A DNA stretch of 64,000 nucleotides, taken from positions 1,729,985 to 1,793,984 of the forward strand of contig NZ_LT671675.1 in the NCBI RefSeq assembly GCF_900143685.1, in the 5' to 3' direction. A program made the translations under genes and the position numbers. Positions 34,298 through 38,737 of the stretch are shown piece by piece (within the stretch, counting starts at the first letter, position 1; each line of letters starts with the position of its first letter). This stretch comes from Parolsenella massiliensis. Its GTDB lineage: Bacteria > Actinomycetota > Coriobacteriia > Coriobacteriales > Atopobiaceae. The notes beneath the pieces were generated by a model. That model was given only the letters and a program-made list of their open reading frames with translations, was not told the origin of the DNA and did no database searches.

Positions 34298-34408
34298 GAG
34301 CGCGTTCGATGGGAACGGGTGCCCGCCAGAGGCCCCTTATGGCTGCTGCCTCCCGGCCCTGACCAGGTTCGAGGTGTGGCGTCACCCGAACCCATCGAAC
34401 GCGCTCGG
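34298..34408 (-). ncRNA. ffs: signal recognition particle RNA, small bacterial type (4.5S)
   Basis: Folds into one long hairpin: the terminal stem GAGCGCGTTCGATGGG pairs with CCCATCGAACGCGCTC. The tip contains the conserved SRP54/Ffh-binding part CCTGGTCAGGGCCGGGAGG followed by CAGCAGCC. A -10 box TATACT lies just upstream (34,415-34,420 complement), which puts the 5' end near 34,408. No Alu domain, as in most bacteria with 4.5S RNA. It fills most of the 310-base gap between dedA and ecfT. Confidence 0.95.
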
Positions 34409-34518: not shown

Positions 34519-35265
34519 CTAGAGCAGGGCGCCGACGGCGATGAGGGCCACGGTGACGGCGAGGGCGGCCACGTCGATGCCCGCGACGGGATAGCGCTTG
34601 TAGCTGCTCTCGCGCGTGCGCAGGTAGAAGCCGCGCTGCTCGGCGGCCAGCGCCGTGACGTCGGTCTTGCCCACCGAGCTCACGAGCAGCGGCACGCACA
34701 GCGGGAGCATGAGGCGGATCTTCTTGAGGGGGTTTCTCGTGTCGTACTCAACGCCGCGGGCCGTCTGCGCCTCCATGATCGCGTTCATCTCCTGCGAGAA
34801 CACCGGGACGAAGCGCAGCGCCGTCGTGAACGTGAACGCGTAGCGGTACGGCACGTGCAGCACCTCGACGCAGGCGTTCGCCAGGTCGTTGAGCTTCGTG
34901 ACCGTGAGCATGAGGATGAGCGGCAGCGCCACGCCCAGAAGGCGCAGGCACGCCTTGCCGCCCGTGACGAGGCCGTCGGTCGTGACCCACGCAAACAGTA
35001 CGTCTCCCCCGCGCACGAAGGCCGTCTGCAGCACGAGCATCACCACGGCAAGCGGCACGAGCAGCTTCAGCAGCGACAGGAGGTTCTTCAGCACGCCGGC
35101 GTAGGCGCCCAGCAGAAGCGTGAGCGCGAGAAGGCCCACGAGCATGGGGAACGTGTCTGCCAGAAACGTCGCCACGATGATGCCGGCGGCGAGCGCGAGC
35201 TTGGCCACGGGATTCAGGCGGTGCAGGACGGTGGTGCCCGGCACGTAGTCGATGACGTTAACCAC
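34519..35265 (-). CDS. ecfT: ECF transporter transmembrane subunit EcfT
   Basis: A 248-residue scaffold protein that links the ATPases to the substrate-binding S component. About five to six hydrophobic segments (LALAAGIIVATFLADTFPMLVGLLALTLLLG and others) are seen. Two coupling-helix motifs of the AxG/ARG type are present (TARGVEYDT, AEQRGFYLR). It overlaps the end of the dual-ATPase gene by eight bases. Last gene of the attenuator-controlled operon. Confidence 0.92.
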   Translation of the reverse strand: MVNVIDYVPGTTVLHRLNPVAKLALAAGIIVATFLADTFPMLVGLLALTLLLGAYAGVLKNLLSLLKLLVPLAVVMLVLQTAFVRGGDVLFAWVTTDGLVTGGKACLRLLGVALPLILMLTVTKLNDLANACVEVLHVPYRYAFTFTTALRFVPVFSQEMNAIMEAQTARGVEYDTRNPLKKIRLMLPLCVPLLVSSVGKTDVTALAAEQRGFYLRTRESSYKRYPVAGIDVAALAVTVALIAVGALL

Positions 35266-37024
35266 GGCGAATCATCCCCTCGACGGCGTCGACGATGTCG
35301 GAGACCTCGCTCATGCCGGCAAACGCGGGCGAGACCTCGCGAGAGAGCTCTCCGGCGAGCTGCACCATCTGGGGCGGCGCCACGTAGGCGCGCTCCATGA
35401 GCGCGGCGTCCGAGAAGATCTCTGCCGCGACGCCGCGCGCGAGAATCTCGCCGTTCGCCATGACGACGAGGCGCTCGGCGAAGTCGCTCACGACCTCCAT
35501 GTCGTGGCAGACCATGATGACGGCGCTGCCGTGCTCGGCCATCTCGCGCACCGTCTCCATGACGGTCATGCACTCGCGGTAGTCCAGGCCGCTCGTGGGC
35601 TCGTCGAGCAGCACCACCTCGGGCTCGCACACCACGACGCTCGCAAGCGCCACCATCTGGCGCTGGCCGCGCGAGAGCGAGAACGGCGCCTCGTCGAGCG
35701 GTAGGCCAAAGCGCTCGGCAACGCGGGCGGCGCGCTCGCGGGCCTCGGCGGCATCCACCCCTTGGAGCTCAAGGCCAAACGCCGCCTCCTCGAGGACCGT
35801 GTCCCTGCAGATCTGGTGGTCGGGGTTCTGGAACAGCGTGGCACAGTGCGCGGCAATGGAGCTCGTGGGCACCTCAGACGTGCTGAGCCCCGCGATGCGC
35901 ACCTCGCCGGACGCCGGCTTGAGCAGGCCGTTCAAAAGCTTGGTGAGCGTGGTCTTGCCGGCACCATTCTGGCCCACGACACCCACGAGCTCGCCGGGAT
36001 AGACGCGCATCTCAAGGTTGCGCACGGAGGCGCCGCCACCGGGATAGGAGAAGTTGACGCCGGAGAGCTCCACGACGGGCTCGGCGCCCTCGGCGTGGGG
36101 GCGCGGCGCGGGGGCGTGGGGCGAGGCCGCCGGGGCGCGGCCGGGCTCGGCGTCACGGGCGCCCGTGCCAACGAGACCGGCCACAAGCGCGCACGCCTCG
36201 GCAACGTTCAGGCACGGAAGTCCCTGCTCGATGACGCCATGGCGCGCGAGGCTGTTGGAGACGCGGGCCACGCGCGGGCTGTCGACGCCCATGGCGCGCA
36301 GCTCCTCGCCGTGCGAGAACACCTCGTGCGGCGTGCCCTCGAACGCCACGCGGCCGTGGTCGAGCACCACGATGCGGCCGCAGTACTCGGACAGCAGCGC
36401 CACCTTCTGCTCGATGACCACGACGGTGACGCCCATGCGCTCGTTCACCTCGCGAAGGGTGTCGAACACGTGGCGCGAGCTGGCGGGATCGAGCGCGGCG
36501 GTGGGCTCGTCGAGCACGAGGACGCGCGGCTCGAGCGCCAGGATCGCGGCGATGGCGGCCTTCTGCTTCTGGCCGCCGGAGAGCGTGGCGATCTCGCGGT
36601 CGCGCAGGTCGGTGATGCCCACGGCATCGAGCGCGCCGGCGAGGCGTTCCTCGATCTTGTCGTGCGGCACGCCGAAGTTCTCGAGGCCAAAGAGCATCTC
36701 GTCCTCGACGACGGAGGCAACCATCTGCGCGTCGATGTCCTGCAGCACGCTGCCGACGATGCGCGAGATGTCCGTGAGCGTGACCTCGCAGGTGTCGCGG
36801 CCGTCAACGAGCGTGGCGCCGTAGAGCTTGCCCGCGTAGTGATGCGGGATGGCGCCGCTCATCATGGCGGCGAGCGTCGACTTGCCTGCGCCCGACGGGC
36901 CGATGACGCCCACGAAGTCGCCCTCGCGAACGGAGAGCGAGACGGAGTCGAGGGCCTTCTCGCGCCCCTCGTCATAGGAGAACGAGACGTCCCTCAGCTC
37001 GATGATTGGTGTGGATGTGCTCAT
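35258..37024 (-). CDS. fused ECF transporter ATPase, two ABC domains (EcfA1-EcfA2)
   Basis: A 588-residue protein with two complete ABC ATPase domains. Domain one (1 to about 275) has GPSGAGKST, the signature LSGGQKQKAA and VLVLDEPTAALD. Domain two (about 315-588) has GQNGAGKTT, a slightly divergent signature LSRGQRQMVA and VVLLDEPTSGLD. An Ala/Pro/His-rich linker (GRAPAASPHAPAPRPH) joins them. Start 37,024 precedes MSTSTPIIEL after AAAGG. It powers uptake through EcfT and the two S components encoded just upstream, a self-contained (group I) ECF unit. Confidence 0.93.
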   Translation of the reverse strand: MSTSTPIIELRDVSFSYDEGREKALDSVSLSVREGDFVGVIGPSGAGKSTLAAMMSGAIPHHYAGKLYGATLVDGRDTCEVTLTDISRIVGSVLQDIDAQMVASVVEDEMLFGLENFGVPHDKIEERLAGALDAVGITDLRDREIATLSGGQKQKAAIAAILALEPRVLVLDEPTAALDPASSRHVFDTLREVNERMGVTVVVIEQKVALLSEYCGRIVVLDHGRVAFEGTPHEVFSHGEELRAMGVDSPRVARVSNSLARHGVIEQGLPCLNVAEACALVAGLVGTGARDAEPGRAPAASPHAPAPRPHAEGAEPVVELSGVNFSYPGGGASVRNLEMRVYPGELVGVVGQNGAGKTTLTKLLNGLLKPASGEVRIAGLSTSEVPTSSIAAHCATLFQNPDHQICRDTVLEEAAFGLELQGVDAAEARERAARVAERFGLPLDEAPFSLSRGQRQMVALASVVVCEPEVVLLDEPTSGLDYRECMTVMETVREMAEHGSAVIMVCHDMEVVSDFAERLVVMANGEILARGVAAEIFSDAALMERAYVAPPQMVQLAGELSREVSPAFAGMSEVSDIVDAVEGMIRRG

Positions 37025-37132
37025 GTGAGCCTTTCTTGCTGGTAATCTGCGGCGCAGCTGGCGCAGGCGCGTGCGCAGCCGCACAAGACGCGCCGGTCCC
37101 TCGCGAGGCCGGCGCGTCCCATGGTATCCAAG

Positions 37133-37681
37133 TTAGTTGCCGAGGACCTTCTTGAGCGGGAAGTACAGGGCCTGGACCACGATGGCGTTGAACACCGCGG
37201 TGCCCAGGACGATGGGAACCTTCACGACGGCCGTGGCGAGCTCGGCGCCCATGAGGGCGGTGCCGAGGACCGCAAACAGCGCGCCGGACACGAGCGTGGT
37301 GAGGAAGGCCGAGACGAGCGGGTTGACCTTGCTGCCGCCCACACCCGCCTTCACGAGCGCGCTCATGAGCAGCGCGGCCACGAGCTCGGTGACGAAGTTA
37401 AGACCGGGGATGGACGTCGTGAGCTGGATGACGGCGGCGGAGACGATGGCGTAGATGGCCGCCTGCGCCAGGTTGGCGCGCGTGAGGATGATCGCGAGCG
37501 CGTAGGCGGCGATGATGAACTGCGGCTTGATGCCCACGATGGCGAGCGCGTTGCCGAGCGTCATGTTGAGGATGAAGCCGGCGGCGAGCAGGATGGCGAG
37601 CAGGACGAGCGACTTGATGTCGACGAGGCCGGTGGACTTGGCGACGGAGGAGACGGCGCGGGCTTCGGCGTTCGTGGCCAT
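37133..37681 (-). CDS. ECF transporter S component, paralogue 1 (probable tryptophan-type)
   Basis: A 182-residue membrane protein with five to six hydrophobic helices. The first helix (LVLLAILLAAGFILNMTLG) contains the AxxxA-type contact that S components use to dock on EcfT. It shares the block LVLLAILLAAGFILN and the overall pattern with the next protein, so the two arose by duplication. The substrate is inferred as tryptophan or a close relative only from the Trp-codon leader upstream. Two S units in one operon might differ in affinity or ligand. Ribosome site AGAAAGGA. Confidence 0.75.
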   Translation of the reverse strand: MATNAEARAVSSVAKSTGLVDIKSLVLLAILLAAGFILNMTLGNALAIVGIKPQFIIAAYALAIILTRANLAQAAIYAIVSAAVIQLTTSIPGLNFVTELVAALLMSALVKAGVGGSKVNPLVSAFLTTLVSGALFAVLGTALMGAELATAVVKVPIVLGTAVFNAIVVQALYFPLKKVLGN

Positions 37682-37736: not shown

Positions 37737-38306
37737 CTAGTCGGCGATGTGGAGGGCCTTCTTGATGGGGACGTAGAGCGCGCCCACGAGGACGGCGTTG
37801 AAGACGGCGGTGAGAGCGACGACGGGCAGCATGGCGGCGGCAAGCTTGCCGACCACGCCGAGCATCGCCATCTTGATGACCATGAAGATGGCACCCGAGA
37901 CGAACGTGGTGACGAAGGTCGCGACGACGGCGGCGGTGGGCTTGACCGCGCCCTTCTTGGAAGCCGCGTTGACGATGGCGGTCATGAGCATGGCGGCGAC
38001 GCCCTCGGCGGCGAAGTCGATGAACGGCGAGGTGGTCGTGATCTGGATGACGGCGGCGGAGATGAGGCCGATCACGAGCGCCTGGCCGATGTTGGGGCGC
38101 ACGACGAGGATCGTGAGGCAGAAGGCCGAGATGATGAACTCGGGGCTGATCATGCCGCCCGAGATGGACGAGATGGCCTTGCTCACCGTGAAGTTGAGGA
38201 TGAAGCCGGCGGCGAGCAGGATGGCGAGCAGGACGAGGGCCTGGAGGTCGAGCTTGCCTCGGTCGTTGGTGATGACGGTGCGGGGCTGCGGGGTGTTCTG
38301 GGACAT
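37737..38306 (-). CDS. ECF transporter S component, paralogue 2 (probable tryptophan-type)
   Basis: A 189-residue polytopic protein, first structural gene after the attenuator. Begins with a polar tail (MSQNTPQPRTVITNDRGKLD) and then ALVLLAILLAAGFILNFTVS, including the AxxxA docking pattern. About six hydrophobic segments. It lies 79 bases past the attenuator terminator stem, and AAAGGATCGTCACC stands before its ATG. Substrate assignment as for paralogue 1: inferred from regulation, not from sequence identity. Confidence 0.75.
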   Translation of the reverse strand: MSQNTPQPRTVITNDRGKLDLQALVLLAILLAAGFILNFTVSKAISSISGGMISPEFIISAFCLTILVVRPNIGQALVIGLISAAVIQITTTSPFIDFAAEGVAAMLMTAIVNAASKKGAVKPTAAVVATFVTTFVSGAIFMVIKMAMLGVVGKLAAAMLPVVALTAVFNAVLVGALYVPIKKALHIAD

Positions 38307-38385
38307 GGTGACGATCCTTTCCGTGATCGTGATTGGTGTCTGCGTTTGCCGATTCCGGCTGCGGTCGTGGTGAGGTTGCGAGACG

Positions 38386-38416
38386 AAAAAAGGGCCCCCG
38401 GTCGAACCGGGAGCCC
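38386..38416 (-). terminator. attenuator terminator of the Trp-leader
   Basis: Minus-strand 10-bp stem GGGCTCCCGG / CCGGGGGCCC with the loop TTCGA, followed by six T (complement of 38,386-38,391). It is placed between the leader peptide stop and the first transporter gene. Its 3' arm can instead pair with leader-peptide codons 16-19. Confidence 0.93.
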
Positions 38417-38465
38417 TTTCATTCGCGAGGTATAAGGCGCGACAAGACTCACCATCGACCGAGAG
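38395..38465 (-). promoter_or_regulatory. antiterminator pairing of the Trp attenuator
   Basis: CTCTCGGTCGA (complement of 38,455-38,465, codons 16-19 of the leader) is complementary over 11 contiguous positions, including two G-U pairs, to TCGACCGGGGG (complement of 38,395-38,405). The latter is the loop and 3' arm of the terminator, so the two structures exclude each other. A ribosome stalled on the Trp codons (38,479-38,487) would leave the first segment free and favour antitermination. A ribosome at the stop codon would cover it and let the terminator form. Confidence 0.85.
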
Positions 38466-38511
38466 AGATCGAGTTGCGCCACCACCAGTTGTTGTTCATG
38501 GACTGGAACAT
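38449..38511 (-). CDS. tryptophan-rich leader peptide (attenuator)
   Basis: A 20-residue reading frame, MFQSMNNNWWWRNSISLGRW. It has a strong ribosome site (GAGGAGG, five bases before ATG) and three consecutive Trp codons at residues 9-11 plus a terminal Trp. It is followed 30-odd bases later by a terminator, all upstream of an ECF transporter operon. Four Trp in 20 residues is far above chance for the rarest amino acid. The peptide itself probably has no function; its translation speed reports charged tRNA-Trp, as in enteric trpL. Too short for routine gene finders. Confidence 0.92.
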   Translation of the reverse strand: MFQSMNNNWWWRNSISLGRW

Positions 38512-38562
38512 GGTGCCTCCTCTCACAGGGTCGATAAGCGCCTCGTGCGCTTGTTGGGTGCG

Positions 38563-38592
38563 ACTATACGCGCCCGCCCCGCCCGCGCGCAA
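38563..38592 (-). promoter_or_regulatory. promoter of the Trp-leader / ECF operon
   Basis: TTGCGC (complement of 38,587-38,592) and TATAGT (complement of 38,563-38,568) are separated by 18 GC-rich bases. The predicted start lies about 45 bases before the leader ATG. A small hairpin AAGCGC-acgag-GCGCTT (38,536-38,552) sits in the 5' untranslated part. Confidence 0.65.
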
Positions 38593-38631
38593 CCCCTTTT
38601 TTGTTAACGCCTCGTGACGGGATGTTTCTCG

Positions 38632-38737
38632 GCCACGTTTTACGCGTTCGTCTCGTTTACAGCCACGTTTTACGCGTTAGCGAGGCTGTGGACGCGTAAA
38701 ACACGGCCCACAACGGATTGCGCGCGTAAAACGTGGC
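38632..38737. repeat. cluster of GCCACGTTTTACGCG repeats (locus 2)
   Basis: Four 15-base units: direct at 38,632-38,646 and 38,662-38,676 (identical), inverted at 38,693-38,707 (variant ending ACACGGC) and 38,723-38,737. The cluster sits between the aminotransferase stop and the ECF operon promoter. Related cluster at 907-982. Confidence 0.82.

Follow-up and report, generated by a model that had tools for sequence, protein, structure and literature searches.

Evidence for a ribosome-mediated tryptophan attenuator before an ECF transporter operon of Parolsenella massiliensis, with related leaders in other Coriobacteriia

The stretch of the Parolsenella massiliensis genome that was analysed (64,000 nucleotides of contig NZ_LT671675.1, positions 1,729,985 to 1,793,984; hereafter the window, to which all coordinates refer unless stated otherwise) carries on its minus strand a four-gene operon for an ECF transporter. 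Two of the genes encode TrpP-like S components, S1 (37737-38306; 189 aa) and S2 (37133-37681; 182 aa, its start inferred), neither of which contains a tryptophan residue. They are followed by a fused EcfA-EcfA' ATPase (35258-37024, its start inferred inside an ORF that begins at 37084; TIGR04520, 443.1 bits; TIGR04521, 409.9 bits) and by the EcfT transmembrane component (34519-35265; PF02361, 92.4 bits). Both S proteins fall just under the Pfam cut-off for TrpP (PF17099, 27.2 bits), S1 with 25.0 bits and S2 with 24.6 bits in the longer ORF that was scanned, and relatives reach 52 bits. The ten best PDB rows for the AF2 model of S1 (mean pLDDT 81.8) are ThiT, RibU and S chains of ECF transporters (4huq_S being titled only 'a transporter'), with TM scores of 0.52-0.64 by query length and E values of 0.019 or worse, none at 0.001; the model thereby suggests an S-component fold for a gene that lies beside those for EcfA and EcfT. 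The complete ECF module that had been recognized from the sequence alone (two S units, fused ATPases and EcfT) is present in the window. Among 49 related loci, EcfA follows S1 in 48 and EcfT in 47, but a second S gene could be detected in no more than 15. A bacterial small SRP RNA lies just downstream of the operon (34303-34398).

Upstream of the operon and on the same strand, a leader ORF of 20 codons (38511-38449) encodes the peptide MFQSMNNNWWWRNSISLGRW and is preceded by the Shine-Dalgarno sequence GAGAGGAGG (38524-38516). It contains three tandem Trp codons (TGGTGGTGG, 38487-38479) that would act as the sensor, and a fourth TGG stands directly before TGA. For comparison, homologous leaders containing at least TGGTGG were collected from relatives; two chance leaders (L017 and L050; L and G numbers are our labels for loci and genomes) were dropped from the 92 collected, leaving 90, which were reduced at 92% identity to 59 non-redundant leaders. 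The Trp triplet (WWW) is present in 89 of the 90 distinct leaders, and together with the Shine-Dalgarno sequence it points to the translated leader that a ribosome-mediated attenuator needs. The ribosome site and the leader peptide with its three consecutive Trp codons thus stand as the sequence-only reading had given them; the fourth Trp, also part of that reading, exists in the window but is not conserved, as only 16 of the 90 leaders end in Trp.

The promoter that had been proposed for the leader is a more qualified case. A -35-like box, TTGCGC (38592-38587), and a -10 box, TATAGT (38568-38563), are separated by an 18-nt spacer, but a consensus scan called no sigma-70 site at threshold at the leader, because TTGCGC agrees with TTGACA at only three of six positions. 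The TATA-type box is kept in relatives: 59 of 90 leaders have TATANT or TATHGT 25-78 nt before the leader start, whereas 20 letter shuffles gave 2.55 on average, the best -10-like hexamer is TATAGT in 53 of 90, and by eye TTGCG precedes the TATA box in many of them. Just upstream of the promoter (38632-38737) are four copies of GCCACGTTTTACGCG, one with an altered base, two direct and two inverted, spaced by 30, 31 and 30 bp. No exact copy beyond these three occurs in the 2.0 Mb genome, and none of the compared loci of other genomes contains the core; the copies may form an operator array or simply be a local repeat.

Between the leader and the first gene, which starts 80 nt past the T-run, lies a predicted intrinsic terminator with its stem at 38420-38388, comprising the 5' arm GAAAGGGCTCCCGGT (38420-38406; identified by folding and by the partner-permutation test described below) and a 3' arm that runs into the T-run (38402-38388; six T at 38391-38386). 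A consensus scan found one terminator-like site where 0.7 were expected, and the leader transcript folds better than its shuffles (z -5.27; 0 of 200 as good). Codons 16-19 of the leader (CTCTCGGTCGA, 38465-38455), which contain the nearly fixed codons GGT CGA, are complementary over 11 bp (nine Watson-Crick and two G-U, counted by eye) to the terminator loop and 3' arm (TCGACCGGGGG, 38405-38395). This pairing, noted earlier from the letters alone together with the T-run terminator, is confirmed, and folding predicts it to be the outer part of a longer antiterminator that also engages the terminator 5' arm: the inner 5' strand GAGTCTTGTCGCG (38450-38438) starts within the stop codon and is predicted to pair with the terminator 5' arm through an inner 3' strand (38427-38411) that overlaps this arm. 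A third helix, which by analogy resembles the 1:2 stem of classical attenuators, would join segment 1, made of Trp-Trp-Arg codons (TGGTGGCGC, 38484-38476), to the post-stop GCGCC of segment 2b (GTCGCGCC, 38443-38436). In the predicted fold of the window transcript without a ribosome, it is codons 17-20 that pair, with UAUCGACC upstream of the leader, and not segment 1 with GCGCC; a partner of this type was not found, by eye, in relatives.

The genomes of relatives were examined for the conservation of this arrangement. A homolog of S1 was found in 69 of the 140 genomes of the window's family, and in 64 of these 69 a WWW leader (WW once, L121) precedes the S gene. The five family genomes with an S gene but no leader are G008, G039 and G040, which have trpB, and G067 and G073, which have distant homologs only; in G008, an RNase P RNA lies directly upstream of the S gene. 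Counted by locus, TGGTGGTGG occurs within 480 nt upstream of the S gene in 77 of 79 (the two misses being L078 and L073, where the contig begins), and of 20 additional S loci 14 have a WWW or WW leader; L126, among the six without one, is only 421 nt long. Across the class, a strict leader pattern matched 96 of 396 genomes (of which G298 looks like a chance match) and a reversed control pattern 2 of 396, while a covariance model of these leaders matched 136 of 396 genomes and 31 of 153 genera; model matches on the opposite strand in G294 and G392 are the palindromic terminator read backwards. Named relatives include Collinsella, Olsenella, Slackia, Parafannyhessea, Tractidigestivibacter and Atopobium. 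The first Trp codon lies 36 nt from the stop in 87 of 90 leaders, and the residues outside WWW vary. Within the competing arm, the Gly codon is GGT in 87 of 90 leaders, as compared with 16 of 175 Gly codons in eight genes of the window, and the Arg codon is CGA in 69 of 70, as compared with 6 of 138. Since GGT CGA is nearly fixed although both codons are rare in the window genes, it is the RNA rather than the peptide that appears to be under selection there. The element GAGTC begins within the stop codon and extends past it, as TGAGTC in 40 of 59 leaders. An ordinary terminator behind a small ORF, causing partial constitutive termination with no sensing of tryptophan, would account for the strong hairpin with its T-run; it would not account for WWW, the spacing, the rare codons and the alternative pairings being kept in relatives, nor for a leader model that matches so many genera of the class, and we consider it very improbable.

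The alternative pairings were tested leader by leader, because the MAFFT alignment mixes registers within segment 3 and RNAalifold, run on an alignment of the sequences, returned the terminator and one stray helix only. For each of the 59 non-redundant leaders, the energy of the duplex with its own partner was compared with those of permuted partners. Segment 1 with the post-stop segment (-15.18 kcal/mol for own partners, -13.98 for permuted ones), the codon 16-19 arm with the loop and 3' arm of the terminator (-11.56 and -11.10 kcal/mol in the same order) and the two terminator arms all gave 0 of 2000 permutations as good. Three control pairs gave 626, 49 and 429 of 2000, and the value of 49 implies that kinship inflates the permutation figures somewhat. 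The inner part of the antiterminator (the 2:3 helix) was not partner-specific, either from the stop to position +10 with the 5' arm (1738 of 2000 permutations as good) or from the post-stop segment with the stretch before the terminator (175 of 2000). This helix is weakly above spacer shuffles (mean z -0.91; z below 0 in 51 of 59), and swapping of spacers gave a mean difference of -0.21 with the own spacer better in 27 of 59. Because its swap tests were negative, the 2:3 helix was ranked below the codon 16-19 arm and was rejected as the antiterminator by itself.

After removal of L114 and L116, which have no GGTC anchor, the six core pairs between the codon 16-19 arm and the terminator loop and 3' arm can form in 57, 57, 56, 57, 45 and 38 of 57 leaders. 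Within the leaders of ECF operons this arm varies too little for strong covariation (the fifth pair was observed in 45 leaders and expected in 43). The Trp/Arg helix changes on both sides, as in TGGCGC-GCGCCA, GGCGTGA-TCACGCC, GGCACGAC (L121) and TGGTGGCACATGGA (L124). Fold energies were also compared for the part of the transcript that lies beyond a ribosome halted at WWW. With half of the terminator 3' arm transcribed, 53 of 57 leaders are predicted to favour the combined antiterminator. Once the whole arm is out, 54 of 57 favour the terminator, whose mean advantage is 6.7 kcal/mol; antitermination would therefore have to be a kinetic choice, as in classical attenuators.

The elements, their conservation, the fixed codons, the complementarity, the covariation and the predicted fold energies support the sequence-only reading of a Trp attenuator on the ECF operon, and point to stalling, to read-through and to tryptophan as both signal and substrate. 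Very probably, the leader region is a ribosome-mediated transcription attenuator through which the level of charged tRNA-Trp controls the four genes of an ECF tryptophan importer. When charged tRNA-Trp is scarce, the leading ribosome behind RNA polymerase would stall on the three Trp codons and cover segment 1, leaving codons 16-19 (CUCUCGGUCGA) and the post-stop GAGUC free to fold with the terminator 5' arm, the loop and the 3' arm, as it emerges, into a single long antiterminator hairpin, and transcription would continue into the operon. When tryptophan is present, a ribosome at the stop codon would cover the antiterminator arm and the terminator would form; with no translation, segment 1 would pair with the post-stop GCGCC and the terminator would form too. 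In the models the antiterminator and the terminator exclude each other, and a ribosome footprint of generally accepted size would leave the antiterminator strand free at the Trp codons and cover it at the stop. The trp attenuator of E. coli consists of three mutually exclusive helices (1:2, antiterminator and terminator), with the Trp codons in segment 1, and both features are also predicted for the leader described here. Unlike in E. coli, three Trp codons stand in a row, and the best conserved antiterminator strand resembles the terminator 5' arm and would pair with the loop and 3' arm, whereas the 2:3 part is weaker.

Weaker matches to the covariance model led to leaders of other sequence. 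Among 20 such loci examined, a gene with a TrpB-like N-terminal motif lies downstream in 15, a sodium-dependent transporter in one, and ECF genes in the rest. One TrpB-like gene that was scanned scored 627.6 bits with NF009057 (cut-off 366) and 530.9 bits with TIGR01415 (cut-off 518.85), and the sodium-dependent transporter (445 aa) scored 92.7 bits with NF037979 (cut-off 50). The latter is preceded by a second WWW leader of locus L303 (G203:C1:1552653-1552749, minus strand), on the same strand as the leader of the ECF operon and about 1.6 kb from it. Members of this second family, with WWW or WW leaders before TrpB-like genes, are L305, L308, L309, L311-L328 and L330-L337; fewer than three tandem Trp codons are found in L306 (WAW), L307 and L321 (both WW). 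In 20 chosen TrpB-like loci of the window's family, a clear leader with a terminator was found in 14 (WW in L328) and a weaker one in L341, and no leader precedes the TrpB-like gene in L329, L338, L339, L340 and L342. The competing arms of the second family (GGACTGA, GGATTA, GGGTTAT and GGGTCTC) are matched by its terminators (TCAG-TTCC with a bulge, TAATCC and GAGATCC). Arms pair better with terminators of their own family (-12.67 and -13.13) than with those of the other (-9.45 and -9.85), and over 92 leaders this covariation amounts to -12.82 kcal/mol for own partners as compared with -10.98 kcal/mol for permuted ones (0 of 5000), the L303 sodium-transporter leader being counted in the TrpB-like set and arms past the stop lying partly outside the stretch used. 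Conservation within Coriobacteriia with covarying stems, which had been put forward as a check of the attenuator, was accordingly found for the Trp codons, for the fixed arm and for the arm-terminator pairing.

Across leader families the first Trp codon and the stop are 18-36 nt apart, as compared with a median start of the competing arm of 22.5 nt after that codon in ECF leaders (n=62, quartiles 20-25) and 24 nt in TrpB-like leaders (n=28, quartiles 21-26; L328 dropped); in L304, L308, L316, L317, L318 and L320 the best duplex is further off, at 36-41 nt. The roughly 100 related leaders are a natural mutant series for this ruler from ribosome to antiterminator, and may likewise inform on an antiterminator that grips the terminator 3' arm. 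The spacing bears on the alternative of a TnaC-like arrest peptide, in which the nascent peptide would sense free tryptophan and stall the ribosome, high tryptophan switching expression. Such a peptide would suit the near-invariant Gly (88 of 89) that accompanies WWW and, near the C terminus, precedes Arg in 69 leaders and Gln in 17; against it, the Gly-Arg codons are held as nucleotides (GGT and CGA, the latter partly changed to CAA), the residues outside WWW are quite different in TrpB-like leaders, and the arm keeps its distance from the Trp codons more closely than the stop does. The arrest peptide is judged very unlikely, and attenuation by a ribosome stalled for want of charged tRNA-Trp is preferred.

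In some relatives the same transporter family is apparently controlled by a different RNA. In a sample of 396 genomes of the phylum, the TrpP family (PF17099) was found only in Coriobacteriales, in 17 genomes and over the cut-off in 8. Family labels f1, f2 and f3 are used here for what we take to be Atopobiaceae, Eggerthellaceae and Coriobacteriaceae. In five f2 loci (L166, L167 and L170-L172), a TrpP-family gene has a T-box and no detectable WWW leader; the T-boxes precede the matched gene region by 250-290 nt, score 56-69 bits (below Rfam's 93) and have a specifier codon read as UGG. Other f2 loci (L168 and L310) have the peptide leader. Among the trpB regions that were scanned, T-boxes with UGG were also found in those of G043 (L161) and G052 (L160), two genomes in which the WWW leader precedes the importer. 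In these Coriobacteriales T-boxes the signal and the transporter family are the same as for the WWW leader, which unlike them would work through a peptide rather than through a tRNA-binding leader. That relatives in another family use a T-box makes control of the window operon by a T-box, TRAP or a riboswitch conceivable, but no regulatory family of Rfam reached its gathering score in the window, and the 11 weak matches at 38340-38640 (E up to 10) belong to unrelated families and include no T-box (RF00230); such control is extremely unlikely.

The leader, the T-boxes and the absence of trpB suggest that tryptophan is the transported substrate. No match to trpB was found in the host genome (one contig), and in the window's family S genes and trpB are anticorrelated, trpB being over the cut-off in 12 of 69 genomes with an S gene as compared with 32 of 71 (Fisher p 5e-4, uncorrected for kinship). 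If true, this would supply the substrate for an ECF transporter that is weakly annotated and widespread among common actinobacteria of the gut (Collinsella, Olsenella and relatives), in a setting where tryptophan and indole are contested metabolites. No Trp was found in 9148 residues of S1 from 49 loci or in 2664 residues of S2 from 15 loci, as compared with 47 Trp in 2918 aa of other S components (19 counted of 20); by eye, the one exception is a single Trp in the f2 S protein of L310. Avoidance of Trp is retained for the S components and was rejected for the transporter as a whole: EcfA has 1 Trp in 786 aa (three proteins from attenuated operons), but 13 of 26 other EcfA are also without Trp, and EcfT has 5 in 824 aa as compared with 48 in 5307. 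A literature search found no paper on such a bias against the cognate amino acid. A broader reading, to which we give about even weight, is that Coriobacteriales have a tryptophan-starvation regulon, composed of the ECF TrpP importer genes, the TrpB-like genes for an enzyme that makes tryptophan from indole and, in one genome, a sodium-dependent transporter, each with its own leader; that the leaders share the ruler (an arm that for the most part begins 20-26 nt past the first Trp codon, regardless of the position of the stop) and an arm that mimics the terminator and grips its loop and 3' arm; that they replaced, or were replaced by, Trp T-boxes on the importer; and that the S components shed almost every Trp.

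Attenuators before the trp operons of Corynebacterium and Streptomyces have a leader in which two or three UGG codons stand in tandem, and can fold into either an antiterminator or a GC-rich terminator with poly-U, as described in the accessible portions of PMC1262725. The leader of P. massiliensis is like these trpL leaders in its tandem Trp codons, alternative hairpins and GC-rich terminator with a T-run, and differs in its target, which is an ECF importer (or a TrpB-like gene in relatives) instead of the trp operons and trpS named in those portions (PMC1262725), the cases being set side by side by description. The mechanism is already known, and what appears to be new is the target and the lineage. 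The novelty claimed by the sequence-only reading is accordingly narrower, as Trp attenuators in actinobacteria were known (PMC1262725, as excerpted) but none was found on an ECF transporter: among the matches listed in a search of the open-access literature (titles and starts of abstracts), none concerned a peptide attenuator before ECF transporter or TrpB-like genes, or one from Coriobacteriia. Leader-peptide attenuation would be extended to an importer and, apparently, to a small regulon in Coriobacteriia. The C. glutamicum 'TrpP' was set aside as a precedent, being of the SdpI/YhfL family with transport excluded by its authors (PMC11995493, in part).

The exchange of regulators has precedents in the excerpts of two further sources, which report that hisS has changed between T-box and leader-peptide control (PMC2965389) and that an attenuator or T-box is predicted for the his operon and/or the histidine transporter hisZ*YX (PMC9413887). 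As here, orthologous genes exchange the two kinds of leader; unlike the tryptophan importer, those cases concern histidine in Firmicutes (PMC2965389, PMC9413887, as excerpted). The importer of Coriobacteriales would be a clean case of a T-box and a peptide attenuator exchanging on orthologous genes. A T-box-like element was also observed in the host genome itself (L110; G000:C1:1049524-1049746, minus strand), with a score below the Rfam cut-off and a specifier codon read as ATC (Ile).
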